Shown: positions 28,976-38,666 of the stretch, piece after piece
How the letters are laid out: the number at the start of each line of letters is the position of its first letter
Position numbering within the stretch: position 1 is the stretch's first letter
Assembly (NCBI GenBank): GCA_947475295.1
Contig: CANJLF010000008.1
Coordinates: 1 to 64,000, forward strand
Reading direction: 5' to 3'
Length of the DNA: 64,000 nt
Origin: Fidelibacterota bacterium
GTDB taxonomy: Bacteria > Pseudomonadota > Alphaproteobacteria > Rhodospirillales > Rhodospirillaceae
Translations under genes and position numbers: made by a program
The notes under the pieces: generated by a model
What the model was told of the DNA's origin: nothing
Databases searched by the model: none
What the model saw: only the letters and a program-made list of their open reading frames with translations

Positions 28976-30238
28976 GTGCGCTACGCGCTCCAGGACTCAT
29001 TGGCGCTTCTGATTGACGCTGAGTCCGCCCAGCGCGGCTATCTGCTGACCAAAAGCAATACCTACCTGGCGGCCTACTTCGCCTCGCTTAGCCAGCTGCA
29101 CAGCCATATCAAGGACGTGCAGGATCTTGTCAGCGGCAATCCCACGCAGCATTCGCACGCCCAGGAACTGGGCCGGGTGATCGACGCCAAGATCGAAGAG
29201 CTCAAAGGCGATATGAGTGCGATCAAGGATATGGACGCCGCAACCGCCATCGAGAGTTACCACTCGGGCGAAGCGCACGCGACCGCCAACGAAATCCGCA
29301 CCGCCGTCGATAAAATGATTGAGGAAGAAGAACAGCTTTTTGAACTGCGCGCCATCGACATGGAGAATATGACGCGCCTGACGGTCATGCTGTTCGTCGC
29401 CCTCTTGGTGCTTTTCGCGGGCGTGATGGCGGGGTACTTCGTTCTGACGAACCGCAACATGGCGCTGCGCAATTCCATGATGGCGAAGCTGGTGGCCGCC
29501 AACGCCGAAACCGAACGCGCGGATAAATTCAAAGGCGATCTATTGAACTACCTGGGCCGCGTGCTGTATGAGCCGCTCAGCCGCGTGACCACCAGCACCG
29601 ATCTTTTATTGCTGCGCGCCGATAACGCCTTGCAGGAAAACGACCACAAGATCGTCACCGAAATTCGCGCCAACGTGCGCTTCCTCTTGTCCCTCGCCGC
29701 CAATTTTCCGCATATCGGCCGCTTGCAGGCCGGCAAAGCCCTGCAACTCGAGGAAGACGACATCGATCTCGGGGACATCGTGCGCGATGTCGCCGGCATT
29801 GTCGCCATTCCGGCGGCCAAAGCCGGAATAAACTTGCGTCACACCCTGCCCTTCGGTCGCGCTTTGATCCGCTGCGACAAACAAAAGCTGAAGCAAATTC
29901 TGCTGAACCTGCTCGACAACGCCGTGAAGCATACGCCGTCGGGCGGCAGCATCGAACTTTCGGCGGCGAAAATCAGCACCGGAGACCTCACCGTGACCGT
30001 GCAAGACACCGGCTCCGGGATTTCACCGGATCGACTGCGGCAGGTGATGATCCCCTTCGCTCAGATCGAGGACATGTCGGCGCGTGGCGAACAGGGCATC
30101 GGACTGGGTCTGCCCATGGCGCTGGGTTTCGCCCAGGCGCACGGCGGAAAGCTGGAGCTCTTTAGCGACGGGCACGGCACCACGGCGGTATTGACCTTGC
30201 CCGCCAGCCGCGTCATCCGGGTCTTCGATTTAGCTTAG
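28976..30238 (+). CDS. CHASE3-domain sensor kinase lacking the phospho-acceptor His (5' part out of frame)
   Basis: From GTG 28976 the 420-residue product has most of a CHASE3 sensor (ALLIDAESAQRGYLLT), a membrane helix (LTVMLFVALLVLFAGVMAGYFVL) and a dimerisation region. There the expected SHELRTPL-like motif reads GRVLYEPL, so Arg stands where the acceptor His should be. The ATPase lobe looks complete: N-box LNLLDNAVKHTP, G1 DTGSGISP, and G2 GEQGIGLGLPMAL. The first membrane helix is in another frame. Without it the sensor would be anchored by one helix only. It ends 3 nt into the convergent receptor gene. No response regulator is adjacent. Confidence 0.75.
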   Translation: MRYALQDSLALLIDAESAQRGYLLTKSNTYLAAYFASLSQLHSHIKDVQDLVSGNPTQHSHAQELGRVIDAKIEELKGDMSAIKDMDAATAIESYHSGEAHATANEIRTAVDKMIEEEEQLFELRAIDMENMTRLTVMLFVALLVLFAGVMAGYFVLTNRNMALRNSMMAKLVAANAETERADKFKGDLLNYLGRVLYEPLSRVTTSTDLLLLRADNALQENDHKIVTEIRANVRFLLSLAANFPHIGRLQAGKALQLEEDDIDLGDIVRDVAGIVAIPAAKAGINLRHTLPFGRALIRCDKQKLKQILLNLLDNAVKHTPSGGSIELSAAKISTGDLTVTVQDTGSGISPDRLRQVMIPFAQIEDMSARGEQGIGLGLPMALGFAQAHGGKLELFSDGHGTTAVLTLPASRVIRVFDLA

Positions 30239-32184
30239 AAATCCCCCGATAGCCTGACCATGTAGGTCCGATGGCCATTGGGGGAAAAGCGCCCCGAATT
30301 GCCGTCGACCGTCCAACTCCATGCATTAAAGACGTTGTCTACAAACAGGCGGGCCGCGAGGCGCGTCGAGCCAACATTAAATGGATATCGCGCACCGAGA
30401 CCAAAGGTCGTCAGCGTCGGCACTTTGAATGTGTTTGTGCGATTGGCGTCGCTCCCGGTCTCCGAATTCATCTGGAACTCGCCGATCACGCCGTGCATCC
30501 ATTGCGGGGCGTATTGCGCATTCAACCTTATGGTAAGAGGCGGCAGGCCTGGTTCGATGCTGCCAATCGTACCGTTAGCGACCGTCAGGCCCGAGACCTT
30601 GCCATTGATGTAGACCGCGCCGGCAACCAGCGTAACGCTGGGGATCGGTTTACCAGTGAGGGAGAATTCGACACCGGTGTGCTTGAGGTCGCCGACAACG
30701 GTGTAGAGGTTGGCCGCATCGCGGTCGTAGTAGGGCTTTTTGATCTCGAAAGCGCCGACCATCAAGTTGAGGCCCGGCATAATCGCATAGCGAATACCGG
30801 CATCAACTTGAGACGTTACCCGCGCCTGCAAAGGCTCGCCGGCGTTGGCTGTGCCGTCAGGCGCCGTACCAAATTCCTCGATCCCACGCGCATAGCTGCC
30901 ATAGACGACAAAATCGCGCGAGACGTAATAGGCCGCCGTGGCGTTCAAAAGCCAAGGCTCGCTGCGGGTGGAATTGGCAACTGCGTTTTCCTTGCCGAAG
31001 GAGCGGTCGTAATAACTCCGCTGCACACCGACGCTGGCTTCGCCAATATTGGCCCACTGCAGGCCATAGGAAACGCCCGGTGTGTATTGTTTGACAACAT
31101 CCTTATCGCGCACGCCGTAGGTATAACGCGGATAGGGTTGAGGATTGTTCGCCCCGATCTGGGATGTGCCAAAACTCACCGATGTTCCGCCGCCAAACGT
31201 ACGGGTCACATCGCGGCCCCGCACGGCAAGATCAATCGTATGGCGGAATTGGCCGGTGGTATAAACGCCTGTGGCCCGCACCTCGCCCGAATATGACAGC
31301 GTGCGGTGGCTAGGATATTTCAGCACGCTGAGGGTGCCGGTGCCGTTCGCCTGGACGCCGCGATAATTGACGACATAGTTGGTGGAGCGGTCGAGCTCGG
31401 AGCTGAACACACCGCCGCGCACGATCCAGTTATCGAAGGGCCGCACGCGCACGATCAGGCCGCTGGAGACTTCATCTTGATTGCGATCAGCCCATTGCTG
31501 GCTGAAGAACACACTGCGATCAAATTTCGGCGGCAAGTAATCGCCGGCTGTATAGATGAACGGCACGACCTCGTCGTTATCTGTACGCTGGATATAATGG
31601 AACGGAATCACGTCAATCGCATCGGTCGGACGCCAACGCGCGAGCACACCGAGATTCCAGCGATTGAGCGGCCCACCGGCCTGGGCGCGCGACGCCGCGG
31701 CCGGAAACCCCCCGACGTAAAAACCGAGGTCGTCGGTGATCGGGCCCGAAGCCGTCACGAATAGGTTATTGGGGCCCGTCGGGCGGCTCATTTCCAGGTT
31801 ACCCGTGAACACCGTCCGGTTCTCCGAAGGCATCGGCAACGAGATATCGGAAATGCCGGTGGGCGCGACAAAGGGATAGGACTGCGCCGACAAGCCGACG
31901 CGCATCGTGCTGCCGCGCATCATGGCGCGACCGAGGAATGCCTGCTGGTCGAAATACAAGCCTTCGATGCGAACATTGCCGGCCGACTGCGGGTTGAATC
32001 CACGTGCGCTGTTGGCGTTATAAAGTCCGACGTTGTCGTTGCCGACCCGGGTGCCGAAGGCATCGTTGGCGGCCGCCACAGCATTGTCATCGGCGGTCTG
32101 GGCTGAAGCGCCAGCCACAAGGAGACAAGACGCCGTGGACGCGAGCATGGCGGCGCGCCAGAAGCGAGAACAACGAATTTTCAA
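30235..32184 (-). CDS. TonB-dependent receptor, paralogue 1 of the tandem array
   Basis: The 649-residue outer-membrane receptor has a signal peptide (RFWRAAMLASTASCLLVAGASAQ) and a plug beginning DAFGTRVGNDNVGLY, ARGFNPQSAGNVRIEGLYFDQQ. A beta-barrel with repeated YPRYTYGVRDKDVV and SYGLQWAN motifs follows, ending VRLSGDF with the usual terminal Phe. No classical TonB box is obvious. TTG 32184 is preferred over ATG 32247: GGGGGA lies 4 nt before it, and the same position starts paralogues 2 and 4. Closest relative in the array is paralogue 2. It has its own leader module. The substrate is unknown. Confidence 0.88.
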   Translation of the reverse strand: MKIRCSRFWRAAMLASTASCLLVAGASAQTADDNAVAAANDAFGTRVGNDNVGLYNANSARGFNPQSAGNVRIEGLYFDQQAFLGRAMMRGSTMRVGLSAQSYPFVAPTGISDISLPMPSENRTVFTGNLEMSRPTGPNNLFVTASGPITDDLGFYVGGFPAAASRAQAGGPLNRWNLGVLARWRPTDAIDVIPFHYIQRTDNDEVVPFIYTAGDYLPPKFDRSVFFSQQWADRNQDEVSSGLIVRVRPFDNWIVRGGVFSSELDRSTNYVVNYRGVQANGTGTLSVLKYPSHRTLSYSGEVRATGVYTTGQFRHTIDLAVRGRDVTRTFGGGTSVSFGTSQIGANNPQPYPRYTYGVRDKDVVKQYTPGVSYGLQWANIGEASVGVQRSYYDRSFGKENAVANSTRSEPWLLNATAAYYVSRDFVVYGSYARGIEEFGTAPDGTANAGEPLQARVTSQVDAGIRYAIMPGLNLMVGAFEIKKPYYDRDAANLYTVVGDLKHTGVEFSLTGKPIPSVTLVAGAVYINGKVSGLTVANGTIGSIEPGLPPLTIRLNAQYAPQWMHGVIGEFQMNSETGSDANRTNTFKVPTLTTFGLGARYPFNVGSTRLAARLFVDNVFNAWSWTVDGNSGRFSPNGHRTYMVRLSGDF

Positions 32185-32310
32185 ATGATCCCCCAGATAG
32201 GGCAAATGCACCTCAAGACCGACGAACAGGTCCCGCGATGCATACAAAACGCCCCTCGCCGGGGCGTTTGATCATATTATGGGAATGTAATGCCTTCGGC
32301 CAGAGCCGAA
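32185..32310 (-). promoter_or_regulatory. conserved leader/promoter module of receptor 1
   Basis: On the minus strand, in order: TTCGGC-TCTG-GCCGAA hairpin (32295-32310), overlapping TGGCCG (32297-32302); 17 bp; TAATAT (32274-32279); a perfect AAACGCCCC/GGGGCGTTT hairpin with T run (32247-32269); a TGCATCGCGGGACC box; and the SD and TTG start. The same order recurs before receptors 2 and 4. The hairpin with its T run could act as a terminator or attenuator, or cap the 5' end. Confidence 0.6.
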
Positions 32311-32348
32311 CACCAGGCAGCGCATCACAGCCGCGTGAATGCTGTTGC

Positions 32349-34298
32349 TTAAAAGTCCACCGACAGTCTGGCTTGATAATTGCGCGGGCCGCTGGGAGAA
32401 AAGCGGCCCGAGTTACCGTCCACTGTCCAATTCCAGGCATTGAGGACGTTATCCACGAACAGACGCGCCGATACCCGCACGGAGCCCACTCTAAATGGAT
32501 AACGCGCGCCGATGCCGAAGGTCGTGACGGTCGGCACCTTGAACGTGTTGGTGCGGTTTGCGAAACTCGCGGTCTCGGAGTTCATCTGAAACTCGCCGAC
32601 GACGCCGCCCATCCATGTCGGACGATATTGCACATTGAAGCGCACGGTGTAGGGCGGCAAACCCGGCTCGGTGCTGCCGATCGTGCCGCTGGTCACCGGT
32701 AGGCCCGAGACTTTGCCTTTGATGTAGACCGCGCCGGCAACCACGGTAAGGCTGGATGTTGGTTTTCCGGTGAGCGAAAACTCCACGCCCGTATGTTTAA
32801 GGTCGCCGACCACCGTGTAAAGGTTGGTCGCATCCCGGTCATAATAGGGCTTCTTGATCTCGAACGCGGCCATGACCAAGTTGAGGCCTGGGATGATGGT
32901 GTACCGGATGCCGGCATCGATCTGCGAGGTTACGCGGGCCTGCAAAGGCTCGCCGGCGTTGGCCGTGCCGTCGGGAGCCGTGCCGAATTCCTCGATCCCG
33001 CGTGAATAGCTGCCGTAGGCGACAAGATCGCGCGACACGTAGTAGGCCAACGTGGCGTTATAAAGCCAGGGCTGGCTGCGCGTGGAATTAGCAACCGCGT
33101 TTTCCTTGCCGAAGGACCTGTCGTAATAGCTTCGCTGCAGGCCGAGACTCATCTCGCCGACATTGGCCCACTGCAGGGCGTAGGAAACGCCCGGCGTGTA
33201 TTGCTCGACGACGTCCTTGTCGCGCACGCCGTAGGTATAACGCGGATACGGCTGGGGATCGGAGACGCCGAGTTTATGCGTGCCGAAATTTATCGACGTG
33301 CCGCCGCCGAAGGTGCGGCTCACATTTCGTCCGCGCACGGCAAGATCAAGCGTATGGCGGAACTGGCCGACGCTATAAACGCCCGTAGCACGCACTTCGC
33401 CCGAATACGACCGCGTGAGATGAGAAGGATATTTTAGGACGCTGAGTGTGGCGGAGCCGTTCGGCTGAACGTTCCGGTAGTTGACGACATAGTTGGTCGA
33501 GCGATCAAGCTCGGAGCTGAACAGGCCGGCGCGTAGCATCCAATTGTCGAAAGGCCGCGTGCGCAACAACAGGCCGTAGTTGATTTCATCTAAGGCGCGG
33601 TCCGCCCACTCCTGTCCCAAGAACACGCTGCGATCGAATTTCGGCGGCACGTAGTCGCCCGCTGTATAGATGGACGCTCCGACCTCATCGTTCTGACCGC
33701 GCTGGATAAAAGCGAACGGGATCGCCTCAATCGTATCGGTCGGTCGCCAACGCAGGATGCCGCCCACACTCCAGCGATCGACTTCCGAACCCCTTTGGGC
33801 GCGCGACGCCCCATACGGTATTAACCCGACATACCAGCCGAGATCTTCCGTGGCCGGACCGGAAGCGGTAGCGTAGAGATAATTGGAACCGGTCGGGCGG
33901 CTAAAATCGCCGCTGACGCTGTAGATGGTGTGATCCTCCGCGGGCATCGACATTGAAATATCGGCAATGCCGGTCGGCGCCGCAAAGGGGTAGGACTGCG
34001 CCGACAAACCGACGCGCATGGTGGTACTGCGTATCATGGCGCGCCCCAGGTGCGCCTGCTGGTCGAAATACAAACCTTCGACGCGAATATTGCCGGCCGA
34101 CGTCGGATTGAAACCGCGGGCATTGTCACTACTGTAAAGGCCGACGTTATCGTTGCCGACCTTGGTGCCGAAGGCGTCGTTGGCTGCCGCGACGGCGTTT
34201 TCGTCGGTGGTCTGGGCTGAAGCCACGGCCACAAAGAGCCACGGCGCGACGGACGCGAGGATGGCGGCGCGGAAGATGCGAGCACAATGAGTTTTCAA
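32349..34298 (-). CDS. TonB-dependent receptor, paralogue 2 of the tandem array
   Basis: 649 residues from TTG 34298, with GGGGAA 4 nt upstream. The long frame reaches back to 34547, but the extra part overlaps paralogue 3 and has no signal peptide. Signal segment: RIFRAAILASVAPWLFVAVASAQ. Plug: DAFGTKVGNDNVGLY, ARGFNPTSAGNIRVEGLYFDQQ. It shares long near-identical runs with paralogue 1, such as the QRSYYDRSFGKENAVANSTR loop. It differs most at about residues 130-190, where the outer loops begin. It ends with RLSVDF. Outer-membrane import of an iron complex or other scarce nutrient is the family role. Confidence 0.88.
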   Translation of the reverse strand: MKTHCARIFRAAILASVAPWLFVAVASAQTTDENAVAAANDAFGTKVGNDNVGLYSSDNARGFNPTSAGNIRVEGLYFDQQAHLGRAMIRSTTMRVGLSAQSYPFAAPTGIADISMSMPAEDHTIYSVSGDFSRPTGSNYLYATASGPATEDLGWYVGLIPYGASRAQRGSEVDRWSVGGILRWRPTDTIEAIPFAFIQRGQNDEVGASIYTAGDYVPPKFDRSVFLGQEWADRALDEINYGLLLRTRPFDNWMLRAGLFSSELDRSTNYVVNYRNVQPNGSATLSVLKYPSHLTRSYSGEVRATGVYSVGQFRHTLDLAVRGRNVSRTFGGGTSINFGTHKLGVSDPQPYPRYTYGVRDKDVVEQYTPGVSYALQWANVGEMSLGLQRSYYDRSFGKENAVANSTRSQPWLYNATLAYYVSRDLVAYGSYSRGIEEFGTAPDGTANAGEPLQARVTSQIDAGIRYTIIPGLNLVMAAFEIKKPYYDRDATNLYTVVGDLKHTGVEFSLTGKPTSSLTVVAGAVYIKGKVSGLPVTSGTIGSTEPGLPPYTVRFNVQYRPTWMGGVVGEFQMNSETASFANRTNTFKVPTVTTFGIGARYPFRVGSVRVSARLFVDNVLNAWNWTVDGNSGRFSPSGPRNYQARLSVDF

Positions 34299-34424
34299 AA
34301 GGTTCCCCAGATAAGGCAAATGCACCTCACGACCGTCGACCGGGTCCAGTGATGCACCCAAAACGCCCCTCCCCGGGGAGTTCACGGATATTAAAGGAAT
34401 ATTGTGCCTTCGGCCAGAGCCGAA
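34299..34424 (-). promoter_or_regulatory. conserved leader/promoter module of receptor 2
   Basis: The same parts as before receptor 1: TTCGGC-TCTG-GCCGAA (34409-34424) overlapping TGGCCG (34411-34416), 17 bp, TAATAT (34388-34393). The palindrome CTCCCCGGGGAG (34369-34380) and GGGGCGTTTT follow, then a TGCATCACTGGACC box. Arms of the GC hairpin have changed relative to copy 1. Confidence 0.6.
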
Positions 34425-34465
34425 AGCACGAGGCAGCACGTCACAGTCGCGTGAAGGGCTGCGGC

Positions 34466-36430
34466 TCAAAAATCTACCGCCAGCCGCGTCTGATAGAGGC
34501 GCTGGCTGCTGGGGGCAAAACGCCCCGAGTTGCCGTCGACGGTCCATTTGAATGTGCCAAAGATGTTGTCGATGAACACGCGCGCCGACAACCGGGTCGT
34601 ACCGATCTTAAAGGGGTAACGTGCACCGACGCTAAAGGTGGTCAGCGTCGGCACCTTGAACGTGTTGGTGCGATTTGCGTAGTTCGCGGTTTCGGAGTTC
34701 ATCTGGAACTCGCCAACAACGCCCTTCATCCATGCCGGACCGTATTGCGCGTTCAAGCGTATGGAGTAAGGCGGCAGGCCCGGTTCGGTGCTGCCAATCG
34801 TGCCGTTGTTCACGGGCAGGCCAGATACTTTGCCTTTGACGTAGACCGCGCCGGCAACAATCGTGAGGCTGGTAATGGGCTTGCCCGTGAGCGAAAACTC
34901 AAAGCCGCTATGCTTGAGATCGCCGACAACAGTGTAAAGATTGGTCGCGTCGCGGTCGTAATAGGGCTTGCTGATCTGGAAAGCGCCCAGCATCAAGTTA
35001 AGGCCCGGCATAATGGTGTAACGAATACCAGCATCGATTTGCGAAGTGACGCGCGCCTGCAAAGGTTCGCCCGCATTGAGAGTCCCGTCGGGCGCGGTGC
35101 CGAACTCCTCTACCCCGCGCGCATAACTGCCATAGACGATAAAACTGCGCGACACGTAATAGGCAATGGTACCGTTATAAAGCCAGGGTTTGCTGCTGGT
35201 GGAAGTGGGCGCAGCGCCCAACTTGCCATAGGACCGGTCGTAAAAAGCCTTCTGCAGTCCGATGCTCATCTCGCCGACGTTGGCCCACTGCAAGCCGTAG
35301 GAAATCCCCGGCGTGTATTGCGTGACGACATCCTTGTCACGCACGCCATAGGTATAGCGCGGATAAGGCTGTAGCGCCGTCACGCCGACTTTGTGCGTAC
35401 CGAAATTCACCGAGGTGCCGCCGCCAAAGGTGCGGCTCACATCGCGGCCGCGCGCGGCGATATTGAGAGTATGGCGAAGTACGCCGCCCGTATAAACGCC
35501 TGTGGCCCGCACCTCACCCGAATAGGACTGCGTCAGGTGCGACGGATATTTCAGAACGCTGAGCGTGCCGGTACCGTCCGGCTGGATGTTGCGGTAGTTG
35601 ACGACGTAATTGGTTGAGCGATCCAATCTGGAAGAAAACGTGCCGCTCCGAAGCTCCCAGTTGTCGGAAAGGCGCGCCCGCAACAACAGCCCATAGGTGC
35701 TTTCGTCTTGGGCGCGGTCGGCCCATTCCTGCCCGAAAAACACGCCGCGATTATATTTCGGCGGCGCATAGTCGCCCGCCGTGTAAATCGACGGCGTGAC
35801 TTCGTCGTTTTCAGTGCGCTGAAGAAAGAAAAACGGGATCGCCTCAAACCAGTCAGTCGGACGCCACCGCAGGACTGAACCGATATTAAACCGTTCGCCA
35901 TTCGAGCCACCCTGGGAGTGCGGCTGCGAATTCGGCAAAGCGTTGATGAGCCATCCGAGTTTGTCGTTGATGGGAAACGAAACGCCGACAAATTCGGAAT
36001 TGATACCTGTCGGGCGGGCGACATCACCGGTCACGCTAAAGGTCATGTGATCCTCTGCCGGCATCGGCAGAAATGTGTCAGAAATCCCGGTCGGCGCGGC
36101 AAAAGGATAGGATTGCGCCGATAGACCGACGCGCATGGTGGAGCTACGCAGAATCACGCGACCAATAAAGGATTGCTGATCGAAATAGAGACCTTCATAG
36201 CGAATGTTTCCAGCCAATTGCGGACTGAACCCACGCGCGTTGTTAGCGCTATAAAGTCCGATGTTATCGTTGCCGACCCTGGTGCCGAAGGCGTCTTCAG
36301 CCGCGGCGACGGCATTTTCATCGGAGGTCTGGGCAGCAGCGTCAGCCACAACCAGCCAAGCCGCCGCCGAAGCCAGTATCGCGGTGCGAAAAAAGCGCGC
36401 GCGGTAATTTTTTAAATGGTCCACTGACAC
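34466..36430 (-). CDS. TonB-dependent receptor, paralogue 3 of the tandem array
   Basis: About 654 residues from GTG 36430, or 652 from GTG 36424. The position that is TTG in paralogues 1, 2 and 4 is TTA (36415) here, so the start has moved a few codons upstream, where GGAG gives a ribosome site. Signal segment RFFRTAILASAAAWLVVADAAAQ; plug DAFGTRVGNDNIGLY, ARGFSPQLAGNIRYEGLYFDQQ; end RLAVDF. In the loop that paralogues 1 and 2 fill with GKENAVANSTR it has GKLGAAPTSTSS. It follows paralogue 4 by 10 nt and has no leader module, so the two form one transcript. Confidence 0.88.
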   Translation of the reverse strand: MSVDHLKNYRARFFRTAILASAAAWLVVADAAAQTSDENAVAAAEDAFGTRVGNDNIGLYSANNARGFSPQLAGNIRYEGLYFDQQSFIGRVILRSSTMRVGLSAQSYPFAAPTGISDTFLPMPAEDHMTFSVTGDVARPTGINSEFVGVSFPINDKLGWLINALPNSQPHSQGGSNGERFNIGSVLRWRPTDWFEAIPFFFLQRTENDEVTPSIYTAGDYAPPKYNRGVFFGQEWADRAQDESTYGLLLRARLSDNWELRSGTFSSRLDRSTNYVVNYRNIQPDGTGTLSVLKYPSHLTQSYSGEVRATGVYTGGVLRHTLNIAARGRDVSRTFGGGTSVNFGTHKVGVTALQPYPRYTYGVRDKDVVTQYTPGISYGLQWANVGEMSIGLQKAFYDRSYGKLGAAPTSTSSKPWLYNGTIAYYVSRSFIVYGSYARGVEEFGTAPDGTLNAGEPLQARVTSQIDAGIRYTIMPGLNLMLGAFQISKPYYDRDATNLYTVVGDLKHSGFEFSLTGKPITSLTIVAGAVYVKGKVSGLPVNNGTIGSTEPGLPPYSIRLNAQYGPAWMKGVVGEFQMNSETANYANRTNTFKVPTLTTFSVGARYPFKIGTTRLSARVFIDNIFGTFKWTVDGNSGRFAPSSQRLYQTRLAVDF

Positions 36431-36440
36431 GACACTCCGC

Positions 36441-38390
36441 CTAAAAATCCGCTGTGATTCTGGCTTGATAAAGGCGCTGGCCGCTTGGCGCAAAACGCCC
36501 CGAGTTGCCGTCTACCGTCCACGTCCAGGCATTGAAAATATTGTCCACAAAAAACCGCACCTGCGCCCGTGTCGTGCCCACGCGGAATGGATAGCGTGCC
36601 CCAATGCCGAAGGTGGTCGCTGTCGGCACCTTGAACGTGTTGGTGCGATTTGCGTAACTCGCGGTCTCGGAGTTCGCCTGGAATTCAGCGACGACTCCCT
36701 TAAACATCTGCGGGCCGTATTGCACGTTTAGCCGCACGGTGTAAGGCGCCAGGCCGGGCTCGGTAGAACCAATGGTGCCGTTGTTCACGGGCAGCCCCGC
36801 GACTTTACCTTTCACATAGACCGCTCCGGCCACCAACGTGACGCTGGGGATGGGTTTGCCGGTGAGCGAGAACTCCACACCGGTATGCTTCAAGTCGCCG
36901 ACAACGGTGTACACGTTAGCCGCATCCCGGTCGTAGTAGGGCTTTTTGATTTGGAAAGCGCCCAGCACCAAGTTGAAACCCGGGCTGATGGTGTAACGAA
37001 TACCGGCATCGATCTGCGAGGTGACGCGCGCCTGCAAGGGCTCGCCTGCATTCGCTGTGCCGTCGGGGGCCGTACCGAATTCCTCGATGCCGCGCGCATA
37101 ACTGCCGTACACGACAAAGCTGCGCGAAATGTAGTAGGCGAGCGTACCGTTATAGAGCCAGGGTTGGCTGCTGGTCGATGTGCGCACCCCGCCCTGCTTG
37201 CCGAAAGTACGGTCGTAATAACTCCGCTGCAGTCCGACGCTGGCTTCGCCGACATTGGCCCACTGCAAGCCATAGGAAATTCCCGGGGTGTATTGCTTGA
37301 CGAGATCCTGATCGCGTACGCCGTAGGTATAACGCGGATAGGGCTGTGGCGCCCACACGCCGATCGGGTTCGAGCCGAAGCTAATCGATGTGCCACCGCC
37401 GAAGGTGCGGTCCACATCGCGGCCGCGCACGGCGAGATCAATCGTGTGACGGAACTGGCCGGTGGTATAAATGCCCGTGGCGCGCACTTCACCTGAATAA
37501 GACAGCGTCAGGTGATTAGGATACTTCAACACACTCAGTGTGGCGTTGCCGTTCGGCTGAACGTTGCGGTAGTTGACGACATAATTGGTTGAGCGATTGA
37601 TCTCGGAGCTGAAGAACGCGCTGCGCAGCATCCAGTTGTCGGAAGGCCTTACGCGCACCAACATGCCGTAGGTGTTGTCCTGCTGGGCGCGATCGGCCCA
37701 TTCCTGCCCGAAGAAGACGCTGCGGTCGAATTTCGGCGGCAAGTAGTCGCCGGCCGTATAGATCGAGGGCCCGACTTCGTCGTTCTTGGATTTCTGCTTG
37801 TAACCGAAGGGAATCACCTCAAGCCAATCAGTCGGCTTCCAATGAAAGACGGTGCCGAAATTATAGCGGTAGCCGTGGGCATTGCCTTGGAAGTGCGGCA
37901 AAGACAGCGGCAAGCCGCCGATAATCCAGCCAAGTTTATCGGTGATCGGAACGGAAGCGCTCAGGTACAAGTTGGTAAGGCCGGTCGGGCGGCTGACATC
38001 GCTTTGCACGGTGTAGGCGGAATGTCCTTCCACCGGCAGTGTCAGGGTAATATCGGAAATGCCGGTCGGCGCCGCGAAAGGATAGGACTGCGCCGACAGG
38101 CCGACGCGCATCGTACTGCCGCGAATGATGATGCGGCCCATGAAGGCTTGCTGGTCGAAATACAATCCTTCGAAACGGATATTGCCGGCCAATGCCGGAT
38201 TAAACCCGCGCGCGCTGGCGCTGCTGTAAAGTCCGACGTTGTCATTACCGACCTTGGTGCCGAAGGCGTCGTCGGCTGACGTGGCGGCGTTGTCATCGAC
38301 GGCCTGGGCCCAAGCGTCGGCCGTCATCAGCCAAGACGCCGCGGAAACGAGCAACGCGGCGCGGAAAACAACAGAACAACGATTTTTCAA
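36441..38390 (-). CDS. TonB-dependent receptor, paralogue 4 (first gene of the tandem array)
   Basis: 649 residues from TTG 38390; a GTG seven codons upstream (38411) is an alternative. Signal segment VVFRAALLVSAASWLMTADAWAQ; plug DAFGTKVGNDNVGLY, ARGFNPALAGNIRFEGLYFDQQ; end RITADF. The region about 130-200 is the most divergent among the four (GYRYNFGTVFHWKPTDWLEV). The leader upstream is about 167 nt from the predicted start, longer than in copies 1 and 2, and holds a second GCGCCC/GGGCGC hairpin (about 38427-38443). Being first in the array, it is probably the lead gene of a two-gene unit with paralogue 3. Confidence 0.88.
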   Translation of the reverse strand: MKNRCSVVFRAALLVSAASWLMTADAWAQAVDDNAATSADDAFGTKVGNDNVGLYSSASARGFNPALAGNIRFEGLYFDQQAFMGRIIIRGSTMRVGLSAQSYPFAAPTGISDITLTLPVEGHSAYTVQSDVSRPTGLTNLYLSASVPITDKLGWIIGGLPLSLPHFQGNAHGYRYNFGTVFHWKPTDWLEVIPFGYKQKSKNDEVGPSIYTAGDYLPPKFDRSVFFGQEWADRAQQDNTYGMLVRVRPSDNWMLRSAFFSSEINRSTNYVVNYRNVQPNGNATLSVLKYPNHLTLSYSGEVRATGIYTTGQFRHTIDLAVRGRDVDRTFGGGTSISFGSNPIGVWAPQPYPRYTYGVRDQDLVKQYTPGISYGLQWANVGEASVGLQRSYYDRTFGKQGGVRTSTSSQPWLYNGTLAYYISRSFVVYGSYARGIEEFGTAPDGTANAGEPLQARVTSQIDAGIRYTISPGFNLVLGAFQIKKPYYDRDAANVYTVVGDLKHTGVEFSLTGKPIPSVTLVAGAVYVKGKVAGLPVNNGTIGSTEPGLAPYTVRLNVQYGPQMFKGVVAEFQANSETASYANRTNTFKVPTATTFGIGARYPFRVGTTRAQVRFFVDNIFNAWTWTVDGNSGRFAPSGQRLYQARITADF

Positions 38391-38592
38391 AACAACACCC
38401 AAACAAGACACAGCACATCGCCACCCGCGCCCTAAGGGGCGCGTCCTAGACCAAGCCGCAGGACTTGGGGGTAAGTGGTACCATTAAATAAATGCAGCTA
38501 CAGGTCGTATCCAGGACCCGCGATGCACACACGAAAAGCCCCTCCCCAGGGGTGTGTAACAGAATATTACGGGACTACGAGGCCTTCGGCCA
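38391..38592 (-). promoter_or_regulatory. conserved leader/promoter module of receptor 4
   Basis: Contains TGGCCGAAGGC (TGGCCG at 38587-38592), 17 bp, TAATAT (38564-38569), then a CACACCCC...GGGGCTTTTCGTGTG hairpin and a TGCATCGCGGGTCC box. The full TTCGGC/GCCGAA stem is eroded in this copy (GCGCTGGCCGAA), but spacing is unchanged. Confidence 0.6.
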
Positions 38593-38666
38593 GCGCTGAA
38601 AATTCTGGCCAAAGCGTTGCACGACCGTGTAGTTTGCAGTGCAAGAACGCTCGTTTTGGGGGATTT

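Follow-up and report, generated by a model that had tools for sequence, protein, structure and literature searches.

The window, the 64,000-nucleotide stretch of DNA analyzed, encodes four tandem TonB-dependent receptors (r1 to r4), and three of them are preceded by copies of one promoter-leader module. This array-specific module is real, is under selection and belongs to a known kind of element. It is present in three copies and nowhere else in the genome, its conservation exceeds that of synonymous sites and lies in the boxes and stems, and its frame recurs in a sister species. With a probability of roughly 55%, each copy represents a core promoter with an overlapping, probable regulator site, followed by a structured 5' leader, the whole having been duplicated together with the genes and co-regulating the array. 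Selection has kept the same module before three of the four receptors, which points to joint switching of the copies.

From the sequence we infer a start site, a sigma factor, a regulator and a role for the RNA, as follows. Tandem gene duplication would have generated the units r4-r3, r2 and r1, each with its own copy of the module. RNA polymerase carrying the main sigma factor would read TGGCCG and TAATAT, and one regulator would bind the invariant 12 bp CTGGCCGAAGGC, which extend from the -35 into the spacer, thereby setting all three units together. The transcript would begin ~7 nt past TAATAT. Hairpin 1 would come first, at the 5' terminus or close to it, and hairpin 2 next. The hairpins may stabilize the mRNA or dock a trans-acting factor, in either case acting after transcription.

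In oligotrophic freshwater bacteria, similar outer-membrane receptors are numerous, and to our knowledge it is mostly unknown whether such copies are expressed jointly or one at a time. An array-wide module whose RNA part appears to have been swapped between species under a steady promoter frame offers a concrete handle on the expression of receptor copies.

Organization of the receptor array

The array lies on the minus strand of a 2.7-Mb genome from a freshwater alphaproteobacterium and is transcribed in the order r4-r3-r2-r1. It comprises r4 (36441-38390, TTG start at 38390), r3 (34466-36430), r2 (32349-34298) and r1 (30235-32184), the last being a TonB-dependent receptor of the siderophore type. 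As originally predicted, r3 lacks the module and follows r4 by 10 nt; these two features imply that r4 and r3 probably form a single transcription unit. The four proteins share 70-76% pairwise amino acid identity and are tandem duplicates, and the third codon positions of their genes are 57-61% identical, indicating that the duplicates are old. Their scores against the NCBIfam siderophore receptor model TIGR01783 (92-110 bits) were strong but divergent, below the curated cut-off of 223.5. The PDB match was FemA (E 2e-24), and a Pfam search with the receptor proteins returned no match. The receptor family has expanded throughout the genus: 11 members are encoded here, and other genomes have as many as 19.

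By sequence, the plug domain of the receptors (30235-38390) looks short, with ~50 residues between the signal peptide and the motif ARGFNP..AGN.R.EGLYFDQQ, and these residues include a TonB-box-like stretch, DENAVTSAEDAFG. The predicted structure of r4 had a mean pLDDT of 52, too poor to judge this domain. The ParC protein encoded beside the array has its nearest relatives, in a plasmid collection, among alphaproteobacteria (57-58%). Public assemblies of the lineage (L074, L075) carry the label 'Candidatus Marinimicrobia', which, set against the alphaproteobacterial ParC, is probably wrong.

Promoter elements and the candidate regulator site

The pattern TGGCCG-N17-TAATAT was found exactly, on the minus strand, at 32274-32302, 34388-34416 and 38564-38592, upstream of r1, r2 and r4, respectively. 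This agrees with the original prediction of three modules with an identical 17-bp spacing. The genome-wide search called for at that time returned the three array copies in the whole 2.7-Mb genome and no additional site at one mismatch, while the reversed pattern, used as a control, gave 10 chance matches. The module is therefore no generic promoter of this genome.

In r1, the promoter region (32274-32310) consists of the palindrome TTCGGC-TCTG-GCCGAA, the invariant block CTGGCCGAAGGC and the 17-bp spacer, with the -35-like TGGCCG at 32297-32302 and the -10-like TAATAT at 32274-32279. The corresponding region of r2 (34388-34429) contains a palindrome at 34404-34429, TGGCCG at 34411-34416 and TAATAT at 34388-34393, and that of r4 (38564-38601) contains an imperfect palindrome, TGGCCG at 38587-38592 and TAATAT at 38564-38569. 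The upstream repeat TTCGGC/GCCGAA had been described as perfect in two copies. It is perfect in r1 (32295-32310) and lies inside a nearly perfect 11-bp arm in r2, while the r4 copy is imperfect (TTCAGC).

TGGCCG had been considered a poor -35, so that an activator or an alternative sigma factor appeared likely. That judgment holds by the E. coli rule. In Caulobacter, RpoD promoters follow the consensus TTGaCgS at -35 and GCtANAWC at -10 (PMC8144410), and by this consensus, derived from Caulobacter rather than from the host, TGGCCG matches four of the six positions of TTGaCg; TAATAT matches four of the six positions of TATAAT. Because of the -35 match, an alternative sigma factor would not be needed. 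A dedicated regulator is still plausible, since CTGGCCGAAGGC, which takes in the -35 together with the first half of the spacer, is invariant at all 12 positions in r1, r2 and r4. The conserved 15-mer of the -35 block has many near matches across the genome.

The part common to all three copies differs in extent from that first described: it begins with the upstream palindrome and ends with a second stem-loop (~38492-38601 in r4). For r1 and r2, the likeness extends over the entire intergenic region. The distance from the module to the TTG start is 21 nt in both r1 and r2 versus ~101 nt in r4, where ~100 nt of extra leader (38391-38491), unrelated to that of r1 and r2, follow hairpin 2. The module thus tolerates different distances to the ribosome site, an argument against the idea that all copies serve to mask this site.

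Searches for further copies were negative. A covariance model of the module detected just the three copies in 19 genomes of the genus, and none of the six best weak matches elsewhere, all of which were checked, lay at a receptor. Comparison of the leader DNA with 73 genomes of the family found no relative, and a de novo motif search in 77 receptor leaders yielded no convincing common motif.

Leader hairpins

Hairpin 1 of r1 (32247-32269), AAACGCCCC-GGCGA-GGGGCGTTT, lies where the transcript presumably begins. It is a perfect stem of 9 GC-rich base pairs followed by TTTT, and it is perfect in this copy only. In r2 (34366-34378, CCCC-GGGGA-GGGG) and r4 (38539-38552, CCCC-TGGGGA-GGGG; located by the terminator scan and by folding), the top of the hairpin is retained, as it is in r1, with 4-5 bp of CCCC/GGGG and a G-rich loop, and the lower stem contains mismatches. 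The GC-rich hairpin with a T run, originally ascribed to each copy, is thus fully realized in r1, but not in r2 and r4.

This hairpin had been proposed to act as an attenuator, which would stop transcription early unless a signal prevented it. The r1 stem with its TTTT is of the expected form, and a simple terminator scan picked out the r4 copy. The scan reported neither the r1 nor the r2 copy, however, and its terminator count was no higher than in shuffled sequences. Furthermore, the run comprises just four T, a stable stem with a T run does not persist across the copies because the lower stem has decayed in r2 and r4, and hairpin 1 would lie ~10-35 nt past the presumed start, so that the terminated transcript would end within ~35 nt. 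We therefore regard attenuation as very improbable.

The TGCATC box of the original prediction is present in all three copies, in the form TGCATC-N-C-N-GG-N-CC. It constitutes the 5' arm of a second stem-loop that had been missed. In r1 (32206-32243, by folding), hairpin 2 is formed by ATGCATC...GGTGCAT with an inner stem of CGGGACC/GGTCTTG; in r2 (34320-34357), by GTGCATC...GGTGCAT with two mismatches in the inner stem; and in r4 (38492-38528, by folding), by GTGCATC...GCTGCAT. Compared with shuffled sequences, hairpin 2 gave z -2.7 in r1 (with the SD region included) and z -2.1 in r4. For the whole leader, we obtained z -4.7 in r1 and z -0.8 in r2, the latter no better than shuffles. Compensatory changes in the stems showed no excess over shuffles; a covariation test is uninformative with just three sequences. 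None of the three leaders, nor of six relatives' leaders, reached the gathering score of any of 4227 Rfam families, searched at gathering and relaxed thresholds.

The same box could also start a short open reading frame, with a Shine-Dalgarno sequence in hairpin 1 and a stop overlapping the receptor start, coupling a leader peptide to receptor translation. In r1 and r2, a 20-codon frame does begin at (A/G)TGCATC after GAGGGG/GGAGGGG, and its TGA overlaps the receptor TTG. The r4 frame from this box stops after 14 codons, ~100 nt before the receptor start, and the differences between r1 and r2 at codon positions 1, 2 and 3 number 6, 3 and 2, the opposite of coding constraint. Such coupling appears very improbable. 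More generally, a coding cause of the leader conservation, either a short frame or an N-terminal extension, was rejected, as the substitutions are not coding-like.

Conservation beyond plain duplication

The intergenic DNA of r1 and r2 is 81% identical (135 of 167 aligned bases), versus 59% at the fourfold sites of the two genes, which indicates that the leader has been kept by selection on nucleotides. An ancestral constitutive promoter and 5' UTR might instead have been copied recently, or homogenized by gene conversion, without any special control. The receptors are tandem duplicates forming one clade, and other neighboring receptor pairs of the genus also have common leaders (L041/L042, L045/L046 and L118/L122). 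Additionally, the fourfold identity of r1 and r2 is raised to 74% in the first 90 codons, compared with 45% in the last 90, so that the likeness may be due in part to local gene conversion. Against this stands the age of the genes, whose third positions have diverged far more than the r1/r2 leader.

The pattern of three-way invariance among r1, r2 and r4 bears on the same question. TAATAT is invariant at 6/6 positions, in contrast to the spacer outside CTGGCCGAAGGC, with 4/12, and the start region, with 2/12. For hairpin 1, the value is 12/14, and the arms of hairpin 2 retain 20 of 30 positions versus 2 of 8 in its loop. In r4, the boxes and stems have thus been retained while the spacer, the start region and the loop have not, unlike what conversion tracts would leave. 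Such alternation of conserved and variable parts is consistent with promoter boxes and with stems whose loops vary freely. Judged by these comparisons, the module is conserved above the neutral expectation, more than a leftover of duplication, and we consider plain duplication or conversion a possible but rather unlikely account.

A promoter frame shared with a sister species

The syntenic locus of a sister species (genome G016) contains a parC 90% identical to that beside the array and two receptors, A and B, with a CHASE3 kinase on the receptors' other side. This histidine kinase gene is located between parC and the receptors in G016 (L171, C7:40000-59000) and on the far side in the window (28976-30238), a difference that points to rearrangement at the array. 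A regulator conserved with the array had been suggested as a check; none was shown to travel with it, the CHASE3 kinase adjoining it in both species on opposite sides. The receptor tree, (B,(A,(r1-r4))), was fully supported and placed r1-r4 in one clade.

The leaders of A and B resemble each other over 62 nt at 82%, versus a fourfold identity of 45% between the two genes. They differ from the leaders in the window and fold well (z -4.0 and -3.8), with GGAG/GGGG in the apical loop and, in this comparison of two sequences, four pairs altered on both sides. By eye, we noted two alternative, switch-like pairings in these leaders (L041, L042), namely GACCAC/GTGGTC or GCGGTGGTC with the downstream GACCACCGC (L042).

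The promoter frame CTGGY-N19-TAAYAT is common to r1, r2, r4, A and B. Among 85 receptor leaders, these five alone contain it, and only at this gap; as the pattern was chosen after the five leaders had been viewed, the result is suggestive rather than a blind test. In 344 kb of background from the window's own genome, the three matches were the window's own copies. The presence of the frame in both species implies that it predates their split and that one of the lineages acquired a new RNA part, the leaders remaining alike within each array. A broader view, which we put forward as speculation and hold to be rather improbable, is that each TonB-receptor array of the genus has its own hairpin module, a fast-evolving regulatory RNA that is alike within an array but exchanged from species to species while the promoter frame stays constant, and that a trans-acting RNA or protein would read together with the all-G ribosome site.

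Elsewhere in the genus, the frame occurs in unrelated places, several of which are ends of an IS3-like element, one of them beside a DDE transposase. The leader of receptor B (L042) resembles outward IS3-like ends in related genomes (L196, L201, L204, L207); for three ends, none of 300 shuffles reached the score. The second receptor of the sister species may possibly have captured a mobile-element promoter. An IS3-like end as the origin of the window's promoters was rejected because the alignment lent it no support, the likeness exceeding shuffles for the B leader and not for those of the window.

All-G ribosome-binding sites

The ribosome-binding site of r1 is GGGGG (32190-32194), 5 nt before the TTG start; that of r2 is GGGG (34305-34308), and that of r4 is GGG. 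The family's 85 receptor genes in 20 genomes include 63 with a run of at least four G at this position (at least five in 47/85) and 64 that start with TTG or GTG. Among 196 other long ORFs of the window's own genome, GGGGG preceded a candidate start in 9, against 8 for a CCCCC control; receptor starts were picked partly by the G run, which favors the receptors, while for the control ORFs every candidate start counted. On this sequence evidence, an all-G ribosome site and TTG/GTG starts are a signature of the receptor family, and they suggest a common translational control.

C-rich sRNAs might pair with the G-rich loop of hairpin 1 and with the all-G ribosome site, thereby co-regulating the receptors. 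In Caulobacter crescentus, the alpha-R8 sRNAs (CrfA/SisA-D) target TonB-receptor mRNAs (PMC12559287), and RusT likewise targets TonB-receptor mRNAs in Caulobacter (PMC11005374); in Xanthomonas, the C-rich sX13 targets mRNAs with G-rich starts (PMC3771888). The family-wide G runs, set beside the control-level frequency in other ORFs, are in line with such targeting, as are the presence of hfq in the genome and the apical loops of the sister leaders. Opposing observations are that the r4 site is only GGG and that the all-G site characterizes the whole family, independently of the module. Furthermore, no such sRNA was found with the Rfam models ar9 and ar15, which had no match in the genome and whose controls were equally silent. 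Regulation by CsrA/Rsm is not indicated, as a csrA search (PF02599) with positive controls gave no match in the ~97% complete genome. We regard the sRNA reading as a tentative and, on balance, unlikely alternative to the promoter-leader module with its own regulator site.

Comparison with known systems

The module resembles an ordinary alphaproteobacterial RpoD promoter, as described in Caulobacter (PMC8144410), in having two hexamers 17 bp apart and a -35 with the partial match given above. It differs in its TAATAT, where the Caulobacter -10 is GCtANAWC, and in its invariant 12-bp block, which extends past the -35 into the spacer beyond what a core promoter needs. Like the cis-regulatory leaders and riboswitches of Rfam, it precedes a transport gene and contains conserved hairpins, but it matches none of those families.

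Among RNA-based systems, sX13 of Xanthomonas (PMC3771888) offers a parallel in the at least four G at the ribosome site of many regulated mRNAs, although it comes from another bacterial class. In CrfA/SisA-D and RusT of Caulobacter (PMC12559287, PMC11005374), several TonB-receptor genes of an oligotrophic freshwater alphaproteobacterium are likewise jointly controlled through their 5' leaders. The array described here differs from them in that its module extends to the promoter and is limited to a single tandem array, and in that the trans-acting RNA would be a putative one.
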